NCBI GenBank assembly: GCA_009773005.1
Contig: WOUT01000007.1
Coordinates: 1 to 64,000 of the forward strand
DNA length: 64,000 nt
Source of the DNA: Chloroflexota bacterium
GTDB taxonomy: Bacteria; Chloroflexota; Anaerolineae; Anaerolineales; Anaerolineaceae
Reading direction: 5' to 3'
Shown: positions 11,743-38,808 of the stretch, piece by piece
Layout of the letters: each line of letters starts with the position of its first letter
Position numbering within the stretch: position 1 is the stretch's first letter
Translations under genes and position numbers: made by a program
The notes under the pieces: generated by a model
Database searches by the model: none
Seen by the model: only the letters and a program-made list of their open reading frames with translations
What the model was told of the DNA's origin: nothing

Positions 11743-12009
11743 TTAGAAGTGGTGATATTCTGCCACGTTAAGCACGAATAGTGTACATCTCTTATCGCCG
11801 TTCGCTTTCTGAGGAATAAACACACCACGAATTGCATCCAGAGCTTTGTTAAGTTGATCATCTTCAACGCCGCACAACAAGGTGCTCAATCCACTGCGCA
11901 GAAAGCCGCCGGTTGATGCAATTGTGGTTACTCTATAATTAGAGGTGGTCAACGCGGTACTTACAGGTTCTGTATCATTATCTTTCACAATTGCGATGAT
12001 CATTTTCAT
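11743..12009 (-). CDS. DarA-like (PF06153) protein, short form
   Basis: An 88-residue protein of the PII-like cyclic-di-AMP receptor family (DarA/PstA, YaaQ in Bacillus). MKMIIAIVKDND and RVTTIASTGGFLRSG match the first strand and the nucleotide-contact loop. The long family loop is trimmed, and CTLFVLNVAEYHHF replaces the usual GGATVFxLxVxxFExF ending. It lies 2 nt after the full-length DarA-like gene, whose last codons supply its Shine-Dalgarno (GAGGAG). The two probably form a hetero-oligomer, which is an inference. Binding of c-di-AMP is untested, and no cyclase is in the window. Confidence 0.82.
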   Translation of the reverse strand: MKMIIAIVKDNDTEPVSTALTTSNYRVTTIASTGGFLRSGLSTLLCGVEDDQLNKALDAIRGVFIPQKANGDKRCTLFVLNVAEYHHF

Positions 12010-12011
12010 AG

Positions 12012-12365
12012 TTACAACTCCTCAAAATGCTCAATTTCAAGTGAAAAAACTGTTGCTCCACCAACCGTAATCGGGGTTGGAGAGGGCAGGGGAAGAGGGG
12101 CGCTTTCTAAAGGGACTGCGATATACTCCACGCGCTGGCGGCAATTTTCTTTAAATGCTTGTAAAATTTGTGGCTGCATTTCGACTGGTAAACCGATCAA
12201 TAGGGTCGCATTGCGGCGGCCTAAAAAAGCTCCAACACTGGGAAGGCGGGTGACTGAAATATTCATTGCGCGGATGACGTCTTCAGCAATATCTGCGTCC
12301 TGGGCTTGTACGACTGCCATACATAACAACCCGTCCTTACATTTTTGAGTACCTGTTTCTTTCAT
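12012..12365 (-). CDS. DarA-like (PF06153) protein, full length
   Basis: A 117-residue relative of Bacillus DarA/PstA. Clear landmarks are AVVQAQDAD, SVTRLPSVGAFLGRRNATLLIGL, KENCRQR and the terminal VGGATVFSLEIEHFEEL. The Thr-Gly-Gly of the canonical loop is Ser-Val-Gly-Ala here, so ligand binding may differ. It sits 12 nt after the glycosidase-like gene and 2 nt before the short DarA-like gene, forming a three-gene operon. A second such pair lies at 34.2-35.0 kb. Confidence 0.85.
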   Translation of the reverse strand: MKETGTQKCKDGLLCMAVVQAQDADIAEDVIRAMNISVTRLPSVGAFLGRRNATLLIGLPVEMQPQILQAFKENCRQRVEYIAVPLESAPLPLPSPTPITVGGATVFSLEIEHFEEL

Positions 12366-25139: not shown

Positions 25140-25440
25140 GTTCATTTGCGTTAGTTAGAGATTCACAGCAATAGGTTAAGCTTGGGGAGAGTTAAAAACG
25201 TAACCCGCCCCACTACTGGGGCGGGAGTATTCTCTCGCGGTTCCACCCAGATTCATCTGCGATTCTTGCACTGCAAATGATCTCGTAAGACTAATAACGG
25301 AGTCAACCGTTTTCCTTAATAGATGTTCTCTTTCAGGAAAATGCTCGCGGGTGGTTTTCGCTGGTTGGTGTAGAGATTCTCAGCCAATGGTCTCTACTTT
25401 CTGATTCGTGCCCAGCTACTCGTCCCGGTCTAAGCATTTA
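25140..25440 (-). promoter_or_regulatory. T-box leader of thrS
   Basis: The T-box core TGGGTGGAACCGCG is at 25249-25236 on the reverse strand. It is followed by a GC-rich terminator hairpin CCCGCCCC/GGGGCGGG (25225-25204) and a T-rich tract. The terminator U-run is interrupted (TTACGTTTTT). The leader begins right after the tRNA-Val tail repeats. The specifier codon was not resolved. Confidence 0.85.
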
Positions 25441-25451
25441 TAAAATATGTG

Positions 25452-31876: not shown

Positions 31877-32533
31877 TTATAAAGGATAAGTTTTTCTTAA
31901 GCGCTCCTGAATTCGAATACGGAATAGAATCAACGCTCTCTTCACAACAGGAATACGTAAAATCAGTAGGAGTAATACAAGGGCTCCATAGATAGAAGGT
32001 TTTATGATATTTCCTTGCAGGCGGGCGAGATTGCCTTTAAATACCAAAAAAAAGTGGACGATGACGATTGGAGAAATGATGTAGACAAGTCGATGGAGAC
32101 GCTTCCAGTTCTTTCCAAGCAGTTTCTTAAAATATCTAAAAGATGTCACCGCGAGAGGCAGTAAAAGTAAAAATGCTGTTAACCCAAAAAGAACATAAAT
32201 TTTGTTGCTCACATCCCGCAGGATTCTGATGAAATTAAACCCGTAATCAAGACCAATAAAAAGTAACAAGTGAATAGCTGCATAGATGAAACCATAAACA
32301 CCGAGCGCTTTTTTTTGTTTTGAAAGGTTTTTCCAATCGAAGATTGCTCCGAGTGGCGAACATGCCAGAGAAAGCATGAGAAAAATGAGTGCGGTTAACC
32401 CGGTTTGCTGTTCAAGTGCCTGAATGGGATTAGCGGTGAGGTTATTTGTGAGGTAACGATACAACAGTACAACCGATGGTGCCCCACCACCAAGATGAAT
32501 AAGAATTTGAAGAAGATTGATGCGTTTCTTCAT
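31877..32533 (-). CDS. msrQ: MsrQ-like heme membrane subunit
   Basis: A 218-residue integral membrane protein of the ferric-reductase-like family (YedZ/MsrQ), with about six helices. Conserved histidines that may bind heme b are in IYAAIHLLLF, KRLHRLVYI and IVHFFLVF. MsrQ passes electrons from the quinone pool to MsrP outside. It follows msrP by 4 nt, as in the known msrPQ operons, which supports the assignment. Confidence 0.88.
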   Translation of the reverse strand: MKKRINLLQILIHLGGGAPSVVLLYRYLTNNLTANPIQALEQQTGLTALIFLMLSLACSPLGAIFDWKNLSKQKKALGVYGFIYAAIHLLLFIGLDYGFNFIRILRDVSNKIYVLFGLTAFLLLLPLAVTSFRYFKKLLGKNWKRLHRLVYIISPIVIVHFFLVFKGNLARLQGNIIKPSIYGALVLLLLILRIPVVKRALILFRIRIQERLRKTYPL

Positions 32534-32537
32534 TTTT

Positions 32538-33497
32538 TTAATAATTTACTTTCAAATCCATTACTTCATACAAGTGAGCCACTTGTTCAGCATACCCATT
32601 AAAAAGTAAGGTATCGCGCCTGGAAACTTCTCCAATCCGCCTCTCGGTCGACTGTGACCAGCGGGGATGATCGACATTTGGGTTCACGTTCGAGTAGAAT
32701 CCATATTCATTTGGAGCAATCGTGTTCCAAAGAGTTGAAGGCTGGGCGGACGTGAGTTCAATCTTGATGACTGCCTTAATAGATTTAAAGCCGTACTTCC
32801 ACGGAACAACGAGCCGGATACCGCCTCCGTTTTGCGCGGGCAGTTCCCCACCATAAAGGCCGGTCGCCAAAATTGTTAGATCGTTTAAAGCTTCATCCAA
32901 TCTCAATCCTTCTTGATATGGCCAGGGGTAAACCGCTTGCTTTTGGCCAGGCATTTCCTCGGGTCTAAAAACAGTTTCAAAGCGGACATACCTGGCATCT
33001 AAGGTTGGTTCTACTTCTTCTAATAATTTAGCCAGCGGGAAGCCGACCCAAGGGATGACCATGCTCCATCCTTCAACACATCGCAACCGGTAGATGCGTT
33101 CTTCAGGTTGGAATTTCTTGACCAGGTCATCCACGCTGAACTTCCTGGGTTTATTCACCAGTCCGTAAACCTCAACATCCCACGGAGAGGTTTGAAATTT
33201 TTCCGCCAAACCGGCAACACCTTCTTTGCTGACAGTGAACTCGTAATAATTATTGAAATTGGTAATATCCTTAACTGTTGTTACTGATTCGCCAAGTTCA
33301 TCTTTTAGATTTTGTGTAACCGCAGATACTATTGGGGCAGAATCAGAGGTGGTCACGATGTTTGGAGCGCATGAGACAAGCGCCGAGCTGCCAGCTATAA
33401 CTCCTGCTGCCTTGAAAAAATCTCTACGCGAAATGTATACATTTTTTGAGGTGATCTCGGAGCTGGTTATCGGAACTGGCTTAAACACGTTTTTCAA
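32538..33497 (-). CDS. msrP: Protein-methionine-sulfoxide reductase catalytic subunit MsrP
   Basis: A 319-residue molybdopterin enzyme that repairs oxidised methionine in exported proteins. The N-terminus has a twin-arginine signal (SRRDFFKAAG, about 24-33) followed by an Ala/Ser-rich hydrophobic stretch. The molybdenum-binding Cys is in RLRCVEGWSMVIPW (about 140-153), and YPWPYQEGLRLDEA and GGGIRLVVPWKYGFKSIK match the sulfite-oxidase fold of MsrP. It is paired with msrQ. Confidence 0.92.
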   Translation of the reverse strand: MKNVFKPVPITSSEITSKNVYISRRDFFKAAGVIAGSSALVSCAPNIVTTSDSAPIVSAVTQNLKDELGESVTTVKDITNFNNYYEFTVSKEGVAGLAEKFQTSPWDVEVYGLVNKPRKFSVDDLVKKFQPEERIYRLRCVEGWSMVIPWVGFPLAKLLEEVEPTLDARYVRFETVFRPEEMPGQKQAVYPWPYQEGLRLDEALNDLTILATGLYGGELPAQNGGGIRLVVPWKYGFKSIKAVIKIELTSAQPSTLWNTIAPNEYGFYSNVNPNVDHPRWSQSTERRIGEVSRRDTLLFNGYAEQVAHLYEVMDLKVNY

Positions 33498-33630: not shown

Positions 33631-34227
33631 TCATTTCGATTTTCGTGCAAAATAATTTATATTTTGTTGAGATATGCTGGCCGGAAAAATTCCTTTTTCA
33701 GTGGATCGCACTTCTTCTATTGTCACAAATGCATTGGGCGAATATTCATGGATAATTGATAACACCTGATTGACATGACGGCGTTTGACAATAGTATATA
33801 TCAACTTGACTGGTCCAGCTGCTCCTTGTCCATCTACGCGAGTAACGCCGTAACCAGCATCATGGATCTTCAGTGCCAGGTTATCACCATCCTCGGAGAT
33901 CATCACCCTGAGGATGAAGGTCCCGAAAGCCAACCGTTCTTCAAGCCAAATACCAACAAAATTACCTATCGCAAACCCGCCAGCATAACCGATATAGGCG
34001 GTCACGCTTTGGAGGTGTTGAACGAGTTGTCCTATGACCACAATCCAGATCAGGACTTCGAAGAAACCGAGCAGAGGAGCAAGGTTACGCCTTCCTCGTG
34101 AAACATAAATGATACGTAATGTACCAAGAGTGACATCGCAGATGCGAGCCAGGAAGATTAGTAAGGGAAGAATCACCCAGGCATACCAATCAAAAGAACC
34201 AGATATTGAAGCATCAAATAAAGTCAT
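33631..34227 (-). CDS. UPF0316 membrane protein (DUF5698-DUF2179)
   Basis: A 198-residue protein of the UPF0316 family. Three membrane helices cover about residues 15-110 (WVILPLLIFLARICDVTLGTLRIIYVSRG). A cytoplasmic DUF2179 domain follows with GYGVTRVDGQGAAGPVKLIYTIVKRR. Members are conserved but have no settled function. It lies 21 nt downstream of the frameshifted DarA-like gene and is probably the last gene of the B12/opine operon. Confidence 0.85.
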   Translation of the reverse strand: MTLFDASISGSFDWYAWVILPLLIFLARICDVTLGTLRIIYVSRGRRNLAPLLGFFEVLIWIVVIGQLVQHLQSVTAYIGYAGGFAIGNFVGIWLEERLAFGTFILRVMISEDGDNLALKIHDAGYGVTRVDGQGAAGPVKLIYTIVKRRHVNQVLSIIHEYSPNAFVTIEEVRSTEKGIFPASISQQNINYFARKSK

Positions 34228-34248
34228 ATGCGTGTTTTCTCCTTGACG

Positions 34249-34619
34249 TCAGACGTCTGGCGTAACTTTGGACCTACCCATCAACGACATGCCTTCCAAC
34301 TCGCCAAAATGTTCCTTGAAGATGCGATAGAAGAGCAACTCTTCTTGGGGGTAAAAATGTTCATAGTCAGCAACATTTTGAACATACATTATTACCCGCC
34401 GAATAGAAGGTTCCACTGGATCAGAACACCCTTCCTTAATTAGATTCAGGGCTTGTTCGACTTTCCCATCTTCCAATCTGATAAGAACAGTACAATTTCT
34501 TTTTTTGCCAGAATCTGCCTGTTGAGGCGATGTAGGTCACTCGAAAATTACCAGAGGTATGGGATGATATTACGTTGTTACAGTCCACATCCCGAATGTG
34601 CAACAAGTATCAGTTTCAT
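34249..34619 (-). pseudogene. Frameshifted DarA-like gene (second member of a pair)
   Basis: The start MKLILVAHSG (ATG 34619, with GAGGAG upstream) matches DarA-like proteins but hits a stop after 13 codons. The next frame continues DVDCNNVISSHTSGNFRVTYIASTG, and the third continues KKRNCTVLIRLEDGKVEQAL...NVADYEHF. Two single-base insertions, in a GGG run and in a seven-A run (near 34505), would explain this. The gene occupies the same place as the intact short DarA-like gene at 11.7 kb, 2 nt after its partner. The loop that is STGGFLRSG in the intact copy is STGRFWQKK here, suggesting real decay and not only sequencing error. Confidence 0.8.
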
Positions 34620-34621
34620 GG

Positions 34622-34969
34622 CTAAAACTCCTCATGATGTTCGACTTTTAATGATAATACTCTAGCTTCACCCGCTGTAACACGAGCCAAGAATAACCCA
34701 GTCGATGTCATCATCCCGTCAATACTGATTACTGTATATTCGATTCGCTGTTTACAGGTTTGTTTCAAGGTTTGGATTAAGGTATTCCATCTCAGGTTGT
34801 TGAAAGGAATAATCAACTTTTTGTTTATCAGACCTAAAAAACCACCAGTACTTGGCAACTGGAAAATTGTAGTGGTGACGTCGTTTAATGCATCGCCGGC
34901 AATTATTGCGGCCTGCGCCTGGACAACTGCTACGATAAAGTTGGTGGTTGAGATGTCTGGAGAATTCAT
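34622..34969 (-). CDS. DarA-like (PF06153) protein, diverged
   Basis: A 115-residue DarA-type protein. FIVAVVQAQ, FQLPSTGGFLG, KQTCKQR and the C-terminal GEARVLSLKVEHHEEF follow the family pattern; compare VGGATVFSLEIEHFEEL in the 12.0 kb copy. The middle, INKKLIIPFNN, has lost the usual NTTLLIGV-type strand. ATG 34969 follows GGAGG. It lies 28 nt after the ATP-grasp gene and 2 nt before the frameshifted partner. Confidence 0.78.
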   Translation of the reverse strand: MNSPDISTTNFIVAVVQAQAAIIAGDALNDVTTTIFQLPSTGGFLGLINKKLIIPFNNLRWNTLIQTLKQTCKQRIEYTVISIDGMMTSTGLFLARVTAGEARVLSLKVEHHEEF

Positions 34970-34997
34970 TCATCCTCCTTTATTGCTTGCATCTGGA

Positions 34998-36044
34998 TCA
35001 ACGCGATTTTGTTAACATATTGAAAATAGAAGATGGCAAATGCTGCCTCATTTCGGAAGGAATAATCAGGTTAGATATTCCCTGTTCGATATTCCGAACG
35101 ATCCCGGCAAGAAAAATTGCATTGATGTATTGGGATGAATCTAACCCAACTCCGGAAGCGCAGACTTCAAACCATTTGTCGGGTATCATTGGTTGGCCAT
35201 TAATTTCAATGGCGAATAACTGACCATCAGCCATGATCACATCGCAACGAGAATAATCACGAACGCCAGCAATTTCAAATGCTCGCTCAGCAAGTTCGAT
35301 CAGCCTTTCTAGCAAGGTTTTATCGTCTACCGGGATGGCTTGGGTATGATGCTCCTCTTTATCCTTGGTGGTAATAATCCTGAGGCTTTTCTTTCGTTTT
35401 AGCGTGATCTCGGCAGGCATCAAAAGTTTGCGTTGACCATTTCCAATCATCGCCACGGTAAATTCTCGGAAATCAGAACAGTTGCCCAGGTATTTTTCAA
35501 TTAATACCTCTTCATAGGTTTCCAATAATTCCCTCAGTTTTGACTCTAGAGAAATCTGGTCGAACACTATTGAACTTTCGTCTAATCCACGGCTATTTCC
35601 TTCGCGGTCAGGTTTCAATATATAAGGATATTCAGTAGCTCCAAGCAGAGACTCCAACCCTGAAACCTGAATATCGTTTTTTTTGATTGTAAAAAACTGA
35701 GGCGTAGCAACTTTATGTGATTGCCACTTCTCTTTCAGGTCTGATTTCGAAAGTACAAGCTCTAGCGCCTCCGGGGTTGACCCAATATACGGAACTTGCA
35801 ACTCATACAAAATTTTATGGATGCTCTGTCGTTCATTAGATTCATCCAGAGCGTAATAATCAGCGCTAAAAACAATATCGGGTCGTTCTAACAGGAGAAT
35901 TCCGGGAATTTGTGGCTTGGCGTGGAGGGAATAATATATTCCAATCACACCGCCGCGATTCAACGCAGAAATCATCCCGTAAAATCGTTCTTCATCTTTC
36001 TTTATACAATCTATCTCAGGACAATGTAGAAGTAATGCCTTCAA
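34998..36044 (-). CDS. ATP-grasp ligase related to D-Ala-D-Ala ligase
   Basis: A 348-residue ATP-grasp enzyme. The N-terminal half (PDIVFSADYY, VPYIGSTPEALELVLSKSDLKEKW) and the ATP-grasp core (PYILKPDREGNSRGL, FREFTVAMIGNG, CDVIMADGQLFAIEINGQPM) match the D-Ala-D-Ala ligase superfamily, with E and N of EING as metal ligands. The usual EVNTxPG ending is altered, so the substrate is probably not D-alanine. It overlaps the opine dehydrogenase by 4 nt. A ligase joining amino acids or related carboxylates is likely. Confidence 0.8.
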   Translation of the reverse strand: MKALLLHCPEIDCIKKDEERFYGMISALNRGGVIGIYYSLHAKPQIPGILLLERPDIVFSADYYALDESNERQSIHKILYELQVPYIGSTPEALELVLSKSDLKEKWQSHKVATPQFFTIKKNDIQVSGLESLLGATEYPYILKPDREGNSRGLDESSIVFDQISLESKLRELLETYEEVLIEKYLGNCSDFREFTVAMIGNGQRKLLMPAEITLKRKKSLRIITTKDKEEHHTQAIPVDDKTLLERLIELAERAFEIAGVRDYSRCDVIMADGQLFAIEINGQPMIPDKWFEVCASGVGLDSSQYINAIFLAGIVRNIEQGISNLIIPSEMRQHLPSSIFNMLTKSR

Positions 36045-37159
36045 GATTTTATTCCGTCCATAACACCTTCGTTAACGTAATAGGTAAGTTCCCCAACGCT
36101 CAGATTGTCAATACCAAGTTTGTCAATCGTACGTCCGCGCCTCCAGTAATCAGTGCGATGAATAATCGATGCAAGGCGGACGATTGAATCCATTGCTCGC
36201 ACGGAGACGCCATACCGTTGACCCAAAGAAGCTATTGGAACCAGACTCATCGGTACATCTTCAAAAATGTAACGATGATTGAGGGTGGGGGGCGCTTTGA
36301 TGCCGTAGTAACCTGGTTGATTATGAATTGCTTCATGCAGGTCTTCGCCAGTGGTATCGTAGGCAAGTTTTAACCATTCCAACGCAGTCCGAGCCCGGAT
36401 TCCGAGTGATGATGCGACAGTCACGCGCTCTCGATCCAGCGCTTCCAATACACGAGCGACTGACGGGGTAACACCCTCGATATAAAATTGGTAGTCTCCA
36501 TGTGTGGATTCGATCCAGCCGGAATTTAAGATGGCCAAGGCAGGGTGGAAAATAGCGCCCATGTTATTCATTCCGGTTTGAAGTACGTTTCCCCCATCGA
36601 TGTATTGTGTGTATGCTTCATGGATTATGTCCAGGACCATGCGAGTGCGTTTAGCGGGGAGAGCAGCCAATGGCACGGCTTCTTTAATGCGGAAGATGCG
36701 CGCTTGTGCAGGACCATCAGAGCGTGAGGCATAGATAAATGTTTCAGCTTCTGACAGGGTCACATCTGCCAGACAATTCTCTTCTCTTAATATTTTTGCA
36801 AACTCAATCGCTCCGCAAGTCCGACCTGGGTGAAGAACAACGATCTGACCATCTTTCAGATGAGGCGCGCAGGCTTTAGCAACATCAGCATGTGCGGAGG
36901 ATGGAATGACCACCATGATCATTTCGGCTTTTTCAAGAGCTTCAGCCATATTGGATGTAACGAACGCCAATTTACAGAAACCTCTTGGTCCTCCTTCCTG
37001 GCTCTCCAGGTTAATTCCTCCCAGTTCTTTTATTGCAGCTATGCGTTCGGGTGTGCGATTAAACAAAGTGGTTGGAAAACCCATAAAAGCAAGATGTGCG
37101 GCCATCGCTTTTCCACCGTGACCAGCTCCGATAACTGTGTATTTCGTTTTTTTGGTCAT
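36041..37159 (-). CDS. Octopine/nopaline-type opine dehydrogenase
   Basis: A 372-residue NAD(P)-dependent enzyme. The Rossmann motif VIGAGHGGKAMAAHLA is at about 9-24. The C-terminal octopine-dehydrogenase domain contains NNMGAIFHPALAILNSGWIE with the catalytic His. The family reductively joins an amino acid to a keto acid, or runs this in reverse. It lies between the B12-binding protein (20 nt upstream) and the ATP-grasp ligase (overlap 4 nt). Opine dehydrogenases also build metallophores such as staphylopine, but no nicotianamine-synthase-like gene is present. Confidence 0.85.
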   Translation of the reverse strand: MTKKTKYTVIGAGHGGKAMAAHLAFMGFPTTLFNRTPERIAAIKELGGINLESQEGGPRGFCKLAFVTSNMAEALEKAEMIMVVIPSSAHADVAKACAPHLKDGQIVVLHPGRTCGAIEFAKILREENCLADVTLSEAETFIYASRSDGPAQARIFRIKEAVPLAALPAKRTRMVLDIIHEAYTQYIDGGNVLQTGMNNMGAIFHPALAILNSGWIESTHGDYQFYIEGVTPSVARVLEALDRERVTVASSLGIRARTALEWLKLAYDTTGEDLHEAIHNQPGYYGIKAPPTLNHRYIFEDVPMSLVPIASLGQRYGVSVRAMDSIVRLASIIHRTDYWRRGRTIDKLGIDNLSVGELTYYVNEGVMDGIKS

Positions 37160-37179
37160 TATATTTCTCCTTTTAATAC

Positions 37180-38808
37180 TTAGTTCAAATCCATTAACCG
37201 ATGCGATTCAGAAATGGGCTCGCCATTGTTGTTTACAGTCTCACAAGATCCGTTAATGATTCGAGTGACGACTTTACCTCTTGCGTATGGGTTATTGCGG
37301 AGTTGCGGCGCATCCAAAATGCCCAGCGCCACTACCTTGGTTAATATAACAGGATCGATAAAAGGATCCAGAACTTTCTTATCTGAAATGTTATGAATGG
37401 CTTGCAGGGTCTTCCCTGCTTCTTGAACTAGCTCATCAACCCGAGCTTTTATCTTGGGATCCGCAGTCATATCAGGCGCGCCGTGCAAGGAATTTTCAAT
37501 TGCCCGGCGGGCAACCTTGCTGGCTGTGATCACGTCATCTGCGGTAGCGGCATGGTCAGCTTCGGTATGTCCAACAATATGGATGATGTCTGGGCGCAGA
37601 GCCATCTGAAGGTAGATGCTTGTCGCCAGATGACCACGCGCCGCTTCCTGGTCGAGCGGATAACTGAGCAACCCCGTACGGGTTTGCTTCCAGATTCTAA
37701 AATCCGGACCACATAAAGGCATGATCAATTCAAGCACTGCCAGCATCTTCGCCAGGTCCATTGTGTCAGATAAACCTGGCGGGCTGTTGAACATCAACTG
37801 GGCAATGTAATCACGGACTCCGAATTGCTTGGCATTGTACGCTGAGAGGAATGCTGAAACCACAAATACGACATCGGATGCATCGCGCATGCCCCAGTGA
37901 TGGGGTTCATTCAACTCCACCGGGATATTTCGCTGACCATAAAATGACATTACTTTCTGATGCTCGCGGATAGAACCTTCAAGGTCCCACGGGCCACGCC
38001 CATCCATTTGGTTAAACCAGAAAAGCGGGATGGCGCTCCATGCGATGTTGATGGTTTCCATGTACATCTCAGCGAGAGGGAGGAAATCATCAGTGCCTGA
38101 GTAAGTGCGCAATAGAGGAAAATTCCCTTTTCGACTGGCGGTATACAGCGCTCGGTAATCATCTGCGCTTCTAACCGGAACACCACCTGCTCCCTTGCGG
38201 CGGGGGTCCTGGCGCTCGGGGTGGAAGAAATTCTCCTGGGCATCCTGATCTATTCCCAGAGAAATCACATCAAGCGCCTTGGTGTCAGCGATTTTTTCAA
38301 TTCCTTCGACTGTGGCTTCCATTGTTGGAAGTCCGAAGTGGTGCCGCAGGAGTGGATAAGGAGATTTCCACTGGATGCGGGCGACGGTCGTTTGCGGGTA
38401 AACATCGGTCTTGGACTCAAGATTTGATTCCCCCTTTAAGAAAACCAGCACCTCCTCGGGGGACTCGTCCCCATCGAAGACACGTTCGAAGAATCCAATA
38501 TTTTTTGCCCGTTCTGCAACAGGCGGTGTACCGCCAAACACGAAACGCATGCCCCGTTCCTGAAGATCGGTTGCTTCTTCGGCAAATTGTGCCAGAAGTC
38601 GCTCGCCGGTTTCCGGCGTCAACCGATAAGAGACACCTATCAGCTCGGCATCTTCCTGTAATGCTGCTTCCAATACCTTTTCAATTGATACGGCGGGGCC
38701 AAGGAAAACCGTCTGCCAGCCCGCAGATTCAGCCAGGCGTAAAAAATTTGTAATGCCTGCCACATGGACGCATTCACCCAAGGCGGCAGCGATGACGGTC
38801 TTTTTCAT
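37180..38808 (-). CDS. B12-binding protein with C-terminal mutase-like domain
   Basis: A 542-residue protein. Residues about 1-135 look like a cobalamin-binding Rossmann domain: MKKTVIAAALGECVHVAG...FLGPA...IGVSYR...FGGTPP. The cobalt-ligand motif DxHxxG reads CVHVAG, so His is kept but Asp is Cys. Residues about 170-540 look like a TIM-barrel resembling B12-dependent mutases (glutamate-mutase-like), which is impression only. If so, both domains are fused in one chain. ATG 38808 follows GGAGGG. It is first in an operon with opine dehydrogenase, ATP-grasp ligase and DarA-like genes. Confidence 0.7.
   Translation of the reverse strand: MKKTVIAAALGECVHVAGITNFLRLAESAGWQTVFLGPAVSIEKVLEAALQEDAELIGVSYRLTPETGERLLAQFAEEATDLQERGMRFVFGGTPPVAERAKNIGFFERVFDGDESPEEVLVFLKGESNLESKTDVYPQTTVARIQWKSPYPLLRHHFGLPTMEATVEGIEKIADTKALDVISLGIDQDAQENFFHPERQDPRRKGAGGVPVRSADDYRALYTASRKGNFPLLRTYSGTDDFLPLAEMYMETINIAWSAIPLFWFNQMDGRGPWDLEGSIREHQKVMSFYGQRNIPVELNEPHHWGMRDASDVVFVVSAFLSAYNAKQFGVRDYIAQLMFNSPPGLSDTMDLAKMLAVLELIMPLCGPDFRIWKQTRTGLLSYPLDQEAARGHLATSIYLQMALRPDIIHIVGHTEADHAATADDVITASKVARRAIENSLHGAPDMTADPKIKARVDELVQEAGKTLQAIHNISDKKVLDPFIDPVILTKVVALGILDAPQLRNNPYARGKVVTRIINGSCETVNNNGEPISESHRLMDLN

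Follow-up and report, generated by a model that had tools for sequence, protein, structure and literature searches.

A 64,000-nucleotide (nt) stretch of DNA from a Chloroflexota bacterium of the family Anaerolineaceae (contig WOUT01000007.1, positions 1 to 64,000; hereafter the window) carries on its minus strand a gene for a fused B12-binding/mutase protein (542 amino acids [aa], 37180 to 38808) followed by one for an opine dehydrogenase of the octopine/nopaline family (372 aa, 36041 to 37159). These two genes are the core unit at this locus and at its relatives. Our reading, to which we give a probability of about one-half, is that they form a two-enzyme amino acid biosynthesis module whose product would serve ion or osmotic homeostasis. 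The mutase and the dehydrogenase probably catalyze connected steps in an amino acid pathway not yet described, one that perhaps yields a protective solute. The first-pass annotation of the window, made from the sequence alone, knew of no pathway with its set of genes, and we likewise found none for the mutase-dehydrogenase pair in open-access full text, a coverage outside which most subscription journals lie.

The pairing is nearly strict. A scan of GTDB genomes gave 282 confirmed relatives of the B12 protein, of which the best 80 together with the window make up the 81 loci discussed here; we take the names of all 80 records to be those of Chloroflexota, the hosts include Anaerolineae, Thermoflexales, Caldilineales, and Roseiflexus, and Anaerolinea thermolimosa IMO-1, Ornatilinea apprima P3M-1, and Bellilinea caldifistulae GOMI-1 are named strains among the 81. 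Mutase and opine dehydrogenase occur together at every one of these loci (81/81). The dehydrogenase lies directly after the mutase in 77 and directly before it in 2 (L081 and L089), two genes are inserted between them in another (L070), and in the last (L074) both proteins are read as a single 920-aa frame. Of the 80 unfused loci, 79 have gaps between the two genes of -101 to 215 nt, measured with the first possible codon as the start of each open reading frame. How nearly strict the pairing is, together with the fusion and the genes enclosed between the two, argues for a shared intermediate. The mutase itself gave a single partial match (27.5%) in 72,556 plasmid records.

A survey of 400 Chloroflexota genomes, which shares some of its organisms with the 80 GTDB loci and is not independent of them, found the B12 protein in 28 genomes, one of which (G184) carries a distant type. 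Identity to the window copy is 68 to 75% in 25 of the 27 genomes other than the window's own, 60% in G382, and 39% in G184, and by this comparison the B12 protein is conserved well beyond chance. The Octopine_DH domain is present in 27/28 genomes with the mutase versus 41/372 without it (Fisher 2.5e-22) and, within the window's own order (36 genomes), in 15/16 with the B12 gene versus 0/20 without. The 28 genomes hold 29 Octopine_DH places, 27 of them beside the B12 gene; put the other way, the dehydrogenase adjoins the B12 gene in 27 of 28 survey loci, the exception (G355) having its mutase at a contig edge. As a control, we took 20 other opine dehydrogenase loci, comprising 19 of the 41 mutase-free genomes and a second copy in G192, mostly with about 4 to 5 kb on each side (two are much shorter). 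All 20 match the dehydrogenase profile and none has a frame matching the profiles of the mutase family, MutE, or KamD at E 0.01, so the pairing is not general to opine dehydrogenases. The distances of the two proteins correlate moderately in a mirror-tree comparison (r 0.45, Mantel p 0.001, 76 of 81 loci), a correlation that does not separate co-evolution from shared phylogeny.

Residues 1 to 129 of the B12 protein match the B12-binding domain (PF02310, E 1.4e-10). The roughly 400 residues beyond have no Pfam match at E 1, and the protein reaches the cut-off of none of the NCBIfam families listed for it. An AlphaFold model built from 52 sequences (mean predicted local distance difference test score, 85.4) nevertheless folds residues 134 to 540, approximately, into a barrel whose best match is the epsilon chain of glutamate mutase (1cb7_B; Z 31.2, 368 residues, root mean square deviation 3.3), followed by lysine 5,6-aminomutase (Z 29.6), ornithine aminomutase (26.8), and methylmalonyl-CoA mutase (19.7); Foldseek concurs with the glutamate mutase match. 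A profile of four true MutE proteins matches the whole barrel in hhalign (E 2.5e-6, probability 88.8), while the match to KamD, whose profile holds only two sequences, is not significant (E 0.048, probability 1.1). The structure prediction proposed in the first-pass annotation thus yields a glutamate mutase barrel, and together with the Pfam matches and the alignment of the dehydrogenase described below, it bears out that annotation's fused B12 mutase-like protein beside an opine dehydrogenase.

The residues that are kept and lost point to a mutase with a distinct substrate. The axial His of the B12 motif and the Gly that follows it are retained, as is the predicted fold, so that the protein may well bind cobalamin, as the first-pass annotation required. 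The family pattern [AG]A[LI]GECVH[VI]AG was found in 79/81 B12 proteins; this and all motif counts over the 81 loci were made by regular expression, so that the remainder are sequences which the pattern missed. Residue E330 of MutE, which we take to contact the adenosyl ribose, aligns with the invariant E416, and K326, presumably its partner, aligns with V412 and is not kept. The columns of R66, R100, and R149, by our assumption the arginines that hold the carboxylates of glutamate in glutamate mutase, are occupied by H157, Q191, and Y236. Invariant R155 and R234 lie two residues upstream of H157 and Y236, and judging from the alignment, both should point to the same side, displaced by one step of the strand, as a shifted arginine claw. 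In the aminomutases, the lysine that binds pyridoxal phosphate (PLP) follows the axial His at a distance of 11 residues (His133/Lys144 and His618/Lys629; PMC3958899). That position is Ala (A26) in the B12 protein and is invariant in 52/52 aligned sequences. With both the substrate arginines and the PLP lysine absent, neither the glutamate mutase nor the aminomutase reaction is likely. Of 167 invariant columns in these 52 sequences, all of which are 69 to 75% identical to the window copy, 126 lie past residue 133, that is, in the barrel. PF06368 matches neither the protein (at E 1) nor anything in the window's genome (at E 0.001). Finally, the distant locus of G184 (L059, 4233 to 8027) encodes a 1,264-aa chain in which the B12 domain and the mutase barrel are followed at the C terminus by a MutL domain (E 4.8e-80), MutL being a family of glutamate mutase accessory proteins; just upstream lies a gene for an opine dehydrogenase with 23% identity to that of the window. 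Fold, profile match, residue changes, and this MutL fusion together support a predicted radical B12 mutase that has its own substrate. MutL (PF13941) was also tried as a genome-level test of adenosylcobalamin (AdoCbl) use and rejected as nondiscriminating, as it is present in 26/28 mutase genomes (not in G283 and G361) and in 20/20 mutase-free genomes of the same order.

The dehydrogenase matches Octopine_DH (PF02317, E 8.1e-49) and aligns over residues 4 to 356 with its closest relative of solved structure, N-(1-D-carboxyethyl)-L-norvaline dehydrogenase (1bg6, E 1.4e-72), whose H202 and D297 we take to be the catalytic residues. Their counterparts are H205 and D301; the catalytic His motif was found in 75/81 dehydrogenases and the acidic motif in 77/81. 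After strand beta-2, where 1bg6 has DID, 67/81 carry NR[TS], the other 14 having been missed by the pattern. Residues of this type are a sign of the use of nicotinamide adenine dinucleotide phosphate [NADP(H)], and from its sequence the dehydrogenase is probably NADPH dependent. A motif that favors NADP(H) also favors the reductive direction.

The genes around the pair suggest what the product might be for. Neighbor families over the 81 loci were counted from a clustering that may split families, and each cluster is named from one or two of its members. Asparagine synthase (AsnB)-type proteins and the DUF5698/DUF2179 cluster each occur in 26/81 loci, followed by a Na/Ca-exchanger family (13/81), an unassigned family of 112-aa proteins (12/81), CBS-pair proteins (9/81), LacI-type regulators (8/81), CPA2 antiporters (6/81), and NhaA (3/81); one locus (L065) encodes a Na+/H+ antiporter and a DarA-type domain in one chain. 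In the 28 survey genomes, once tandem or split domain matches had been merged by hand into single places, four families were counted at no more than 10 kb from the pair: AsnB-type genes in 8/20 genomes with the family (3 genera; 0.19 expected), CdAMP_rec in 6/26 (4 genera, window included; 0.20 expected), Na/H exchangers in 4/22 (2 genera; 0.19 expected), and DUF5698 in 8/18 (5 genera; 0.11 expected). For the AsnB family, Asn_synthase matches with an E of 1.7e-7 or worse, mostly short, were excluded, which reduced the genomes counted from 24 to 20. The figure for CdAMP_rec lends indirect support to the control by a nucleotide signal that the first-pass annotation had proposed, and nothing pointing to the metallophore it had also suggested was seen in this analysis. 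Together, the AsnB-type, cyclic di-AMP (c-di-AMP)-receptor-type, and Na+ exchanger neighbors suggest that an opine-type compound is made and that it has to do with the balance of ions or osmotic pressure.

The AsnB-type proteins are of two kinds, 19 of the 28 having an N-terminal Cys (MCG class) and 9 lacking it, with both kinds present at L086 and L104. In 16 of the 19 MCG-class proteins, the ETYD[VI]TT[IV]RAS stretch of solved synthetases is found as E[ST]FD[PA]ALVRS (3 missed by the pattern), and four of four Cys-less proteins tested stay below the cut-off of NF006949 (asparagine synthase B). One Cys-less gene lies within the pair itself, at L070, where the order is mutase, D-glutamate-cyclase-like gene (PF14336, E 1.4e-70), Cys-less AsnB, and dehydrogenase, the first three overlapping by 4 nt.

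On these grounds, we propose that the fused protein may be an AdoCbl-dependent carbon-skeleton mutase of the glutamate mutase superfamily that works without PLP on a substrate other than glutamate, and that the dehydrogenase would make (or read) an N-(carboxyalkyl) amino acid one step before or after it, the intermediate being shared. With its two carboxylates and its secondary amine, an opine carries a charge similar to that of glutamate or 3-methylaspartate, which fits a glutamate mutase relative with a reset arginine claw. Where present, the asparagine-synthase-type enzyme (Gln-dependent or Cys-less) or an ATP-grasp enzyme might amidate, cyclize, or ligate the product, and this product might then help to keep ions or osmotic pressure in balance; genes for c-di-AMP-receptor-type proteins, CBS proteins, and Na+ exchangers lie nearby.

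Several observations weigh against this proposal. The motif Asp of DxHxxG is Cys in the family (CxHxxG), a replacement that might weaken cobalamin binding, and no cobalamin riboswitch was found at the gathering threshold in the window and the 11 of 80 loci searched. Glu replaces the catalytic Asp in 4 of the 77 pattern-matched dehydrogenases, and opine dehydrogenases can also work oxidatively. The second opine dehydrogenase of G192 (L179, G192:C155, 3797 to 4894) matches the profile at E 1e-125 in mutase-free surroundings, and since it is close to the paired branch, that branch can stand alone. No AsnB-type gene is seen in 55/81 loci and none of the ion-transporter-type clusters in 56/81, although some of these loci are cut by contig ends, so that the osmotic part of the reading rests on a subset of loci; moreover, all four MCG-class proteins tested (of 19) exceed the NF006949 cut-off for ordinary asparagine synthase B. 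The Fisher and Poisson tests disregard phylogeny, and the proximity counts are drawn from few genera.

A catabolic role would turn the pathway around, with the mutase rearranging an amino acid or opine and the dehydrogenase oxidizing the product to a keto acid and an amine, much as B12 aminomutases and their dehydrogenases act in ornithine and lysine fermentation. The closeness of the barrel to both aminomutases, the LacI-type regulators at some loci, and the many hosts among Anaerolineae, which are largely fermenters, are consistent with such a role, which we nonetheless consider rather unlikely given the Ala at the PLP lysine position, the nonsignificant KamD match, and an NADP-type motif and adjacent amide-forming ATP enzymes that suggest synthesis. 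It is also conceivable that the B12 protein is in fact a glutamate mutase, making 3-methylaspartate that the dehydrogenase would use as its amino partner. Glutamate mutase is the top fold match, the MutE profile matches over its full length, and fused B12-MutE proteins do exist (for example, at L162), yet the replacement of the glutamate-holding arginines, the upstream shift of R155 and R234, and the failure of PF06368 to match make this improbable. At L162 (856 to 2829), the fused B12-MutE glutamate mutase is followed by a gene that by eye resembles a nonribosomal peptide synthetase adenylation domain, and the mutase there is a possible supplier of 3-methylaspartate.

A similarly small chance attaches to the B12 protein being a sensor or pseudo-enzyme that controls the dehydrogenase. 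The Cys in place of the motif Asp would suit such a role, and B12 photosensors exist, but the strong conservation of the barrel and the retention of the Glu assigned to the adenosyl ribose speak for catalysis, the partner lysine being the part that is not kept. Within the biosynthetic module that we prefer, one specific chemistry, analogical and to be held at long odds, is that of an opine mutase. The dehydrogenase would couple an amino acid with a keto acid such as pyruvate, the B12 enzyme would turn the branched N-(1-carboxyalkyl) compound into a linear N-(2-carboxyethyl) one, in effect the glutamate mutase reaction with the glycyl carbon replaced by nitrogen, and the AsnB-type enzyme would amidate the product or close a lactam to give a neutral solute. 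The idea draws on the clavam pathway, where, according to PMC6097109, a beta-lactam synthetase related to asparagine synthetase takes N2-(2-carboxyethyl)arginine, which is isomeric with an opine, as its substrate. If true, an opine mutase would add a new reaction to radical B12 chemistry and open another path to substrates of beta-lactam synthetases.

To our knowledge, only a handful of AdoCbl carbon-skeleton mutases are known to work on free acids or amino acids. The family described here is a widespread and well-conserved branch of predicted mutases, undescribed in the open-access literature searched, and its partner enzyme narrows the possible substrates.

In the window, five minus-strand frames and a sixth gene on the same strand span 33631 to 38808. 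The B12 gene starts with ATG at 38808, has GGAGG upstream, and runs to a stop at 37180; after a gap of 20 nt comes the dehydrogenase gene, which overlaps by 4 nt with a Ddl-like ATP-grasp ligase gene starting with TTG (348 aa, 34998 to 36044; PF07478 Dala_Dala_lig_C, E 1.1e-18). After a further 28 nt follows a DarA-like gene of the c-di-AMP receptor family (115 aa, 34622 to 34969; PF06153 CdAMP_rec, E 2.7e-10). The ligase falls short of the Ddl cut-off (81.3 versus 245.65 bits; TIGR01205) and lies below the cut-off in all 25 listed of 26 NCBIfam rows; the DarA-like protein passes the PF06153 cut-off (40.9 versus 27 bits) but not that of NCBIfam DarA (43.8 versus 140 bits). The first-pass annotation would have been refuted had its genes not occurred together elsewhere; the core pair recurs at every locus, whereas the ATP-grasp cluster was found in at least 7/81 loci (the window copy is 26% identical over 232 aa to that at L127) and the window's DarA cluster in at least 2/81, so this part of the first-pass grouping did not hold and both genes are occasional accessories, not core. 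The sixth gene, 21 nt past the frame at 34249 to 34476, encodes a 198-aa DUF5698/DUF2179 membrane protein (33631 to 34227; PF18955, E 1.1e-22) and recurs at such loci as an accessory.

Of the four or five genes first proposed as an operon, four are supported by Pfam, and the fifth, the frame at 34249 to 34476, is by its matches no intact gene but part of a scar that occupies 34249 to 34621 on the minus strand with no intact frame. When its pieces were searched apart, the C-terminal part of the frame resembled the extreme C terminus of asparagine-synthase-like proteins (62% over 29 aa in the best match, E 4e-10), and a piece just upstream in a different frame gave a weak DarA-type match (50% over 30 aa, E 0.001); in gene order, a broken DarA-type copy comes first and the C-terminal remnant of a lost Cys-less asparagine-synthase-like gene second. 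All nine asparagine-synthase-type matches listed for the scar are of the Cys-less class by their N termini. The scar in the window would mark a locus of this kind from which the third enzyme has disappeared. A tandem pair of DarA-type genes lies at about 11777 to 12365 (minus strand), about 22 kb from the operon; the operon's DarA gene and its broken neighbor are arranged alike and may be another copy of such a pair in the course of decay.

Several other features were seen along the way. A conserved operon of DUF6754, unassigned proteins, a MutL-like protein, and an RnfC_N-like protein (L158, G000:C33, 3551 to 11458) is separate from the pair in the window's genome; such an operon lies 13 to 29 kb from the pair in G166, G112, G005, G064, and G311, five genomes that span three families, with unrelated genes in between. 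Chloroflexota open frames of 530 to 761 aa (L173 to L178, family f33) have partial matches to the alpha chain of lysine aminomutase and may represent another undescribed mutase branch. In the window itself, two adjacent minus-strand genes at 31877 to 33497 resemble, by eye, a molybdopterin sulfite-oxidase-type protein and its membrane partner (MsrP/MsrQ-like), and a T-box leader lies at 25214 to 25441 on the minus strand (Rfam RF00230, 106.4 bits).

Among known systems, glutamate mutase (GlmE/MutE with GlmS; Clostridium cochlearium, 1cb7/6h9e) shares with the B12 protein the barrel fold, the fold of the B12 domain, the axial His, the Glu equivalent to E330, and a C-terminal G-x-[LI]-D-x-P motif. 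In contrast to glutamate mutase, the B12 protein is fused with the B12 domain first, reads CxHxxG, has its substrate arginines absent or shifted, and is unmatched by PF06368. Lysine 5,6- and ornithine 4,5-aminomutases have the same barrel fold, but the B12 protein lacks their PLP lysine and has no significant KamD profile match. With 1bg6, the dehydrogenase shares full-length homology and the catalytic His and Asp, while differing in its NADP-type residues and in having a B12 mutase gene as a constant companion. For the third enzyme, the candidate counterparts are beta-lactam synthetase and CarA, themselves relatives of asparagine synthase: the Cys-less AsnB-type protein of L127, the one protein compared, matches 1jgt (E 1.3e-19) and 1q15 (E 9.8e-15) by sequence, although asparagine synthetase B gives it a better match (1ct9, E 2.5e-43); compared with the beta-lactam synthetase systems, the window retains only a remnant of its AsnB-type gene.

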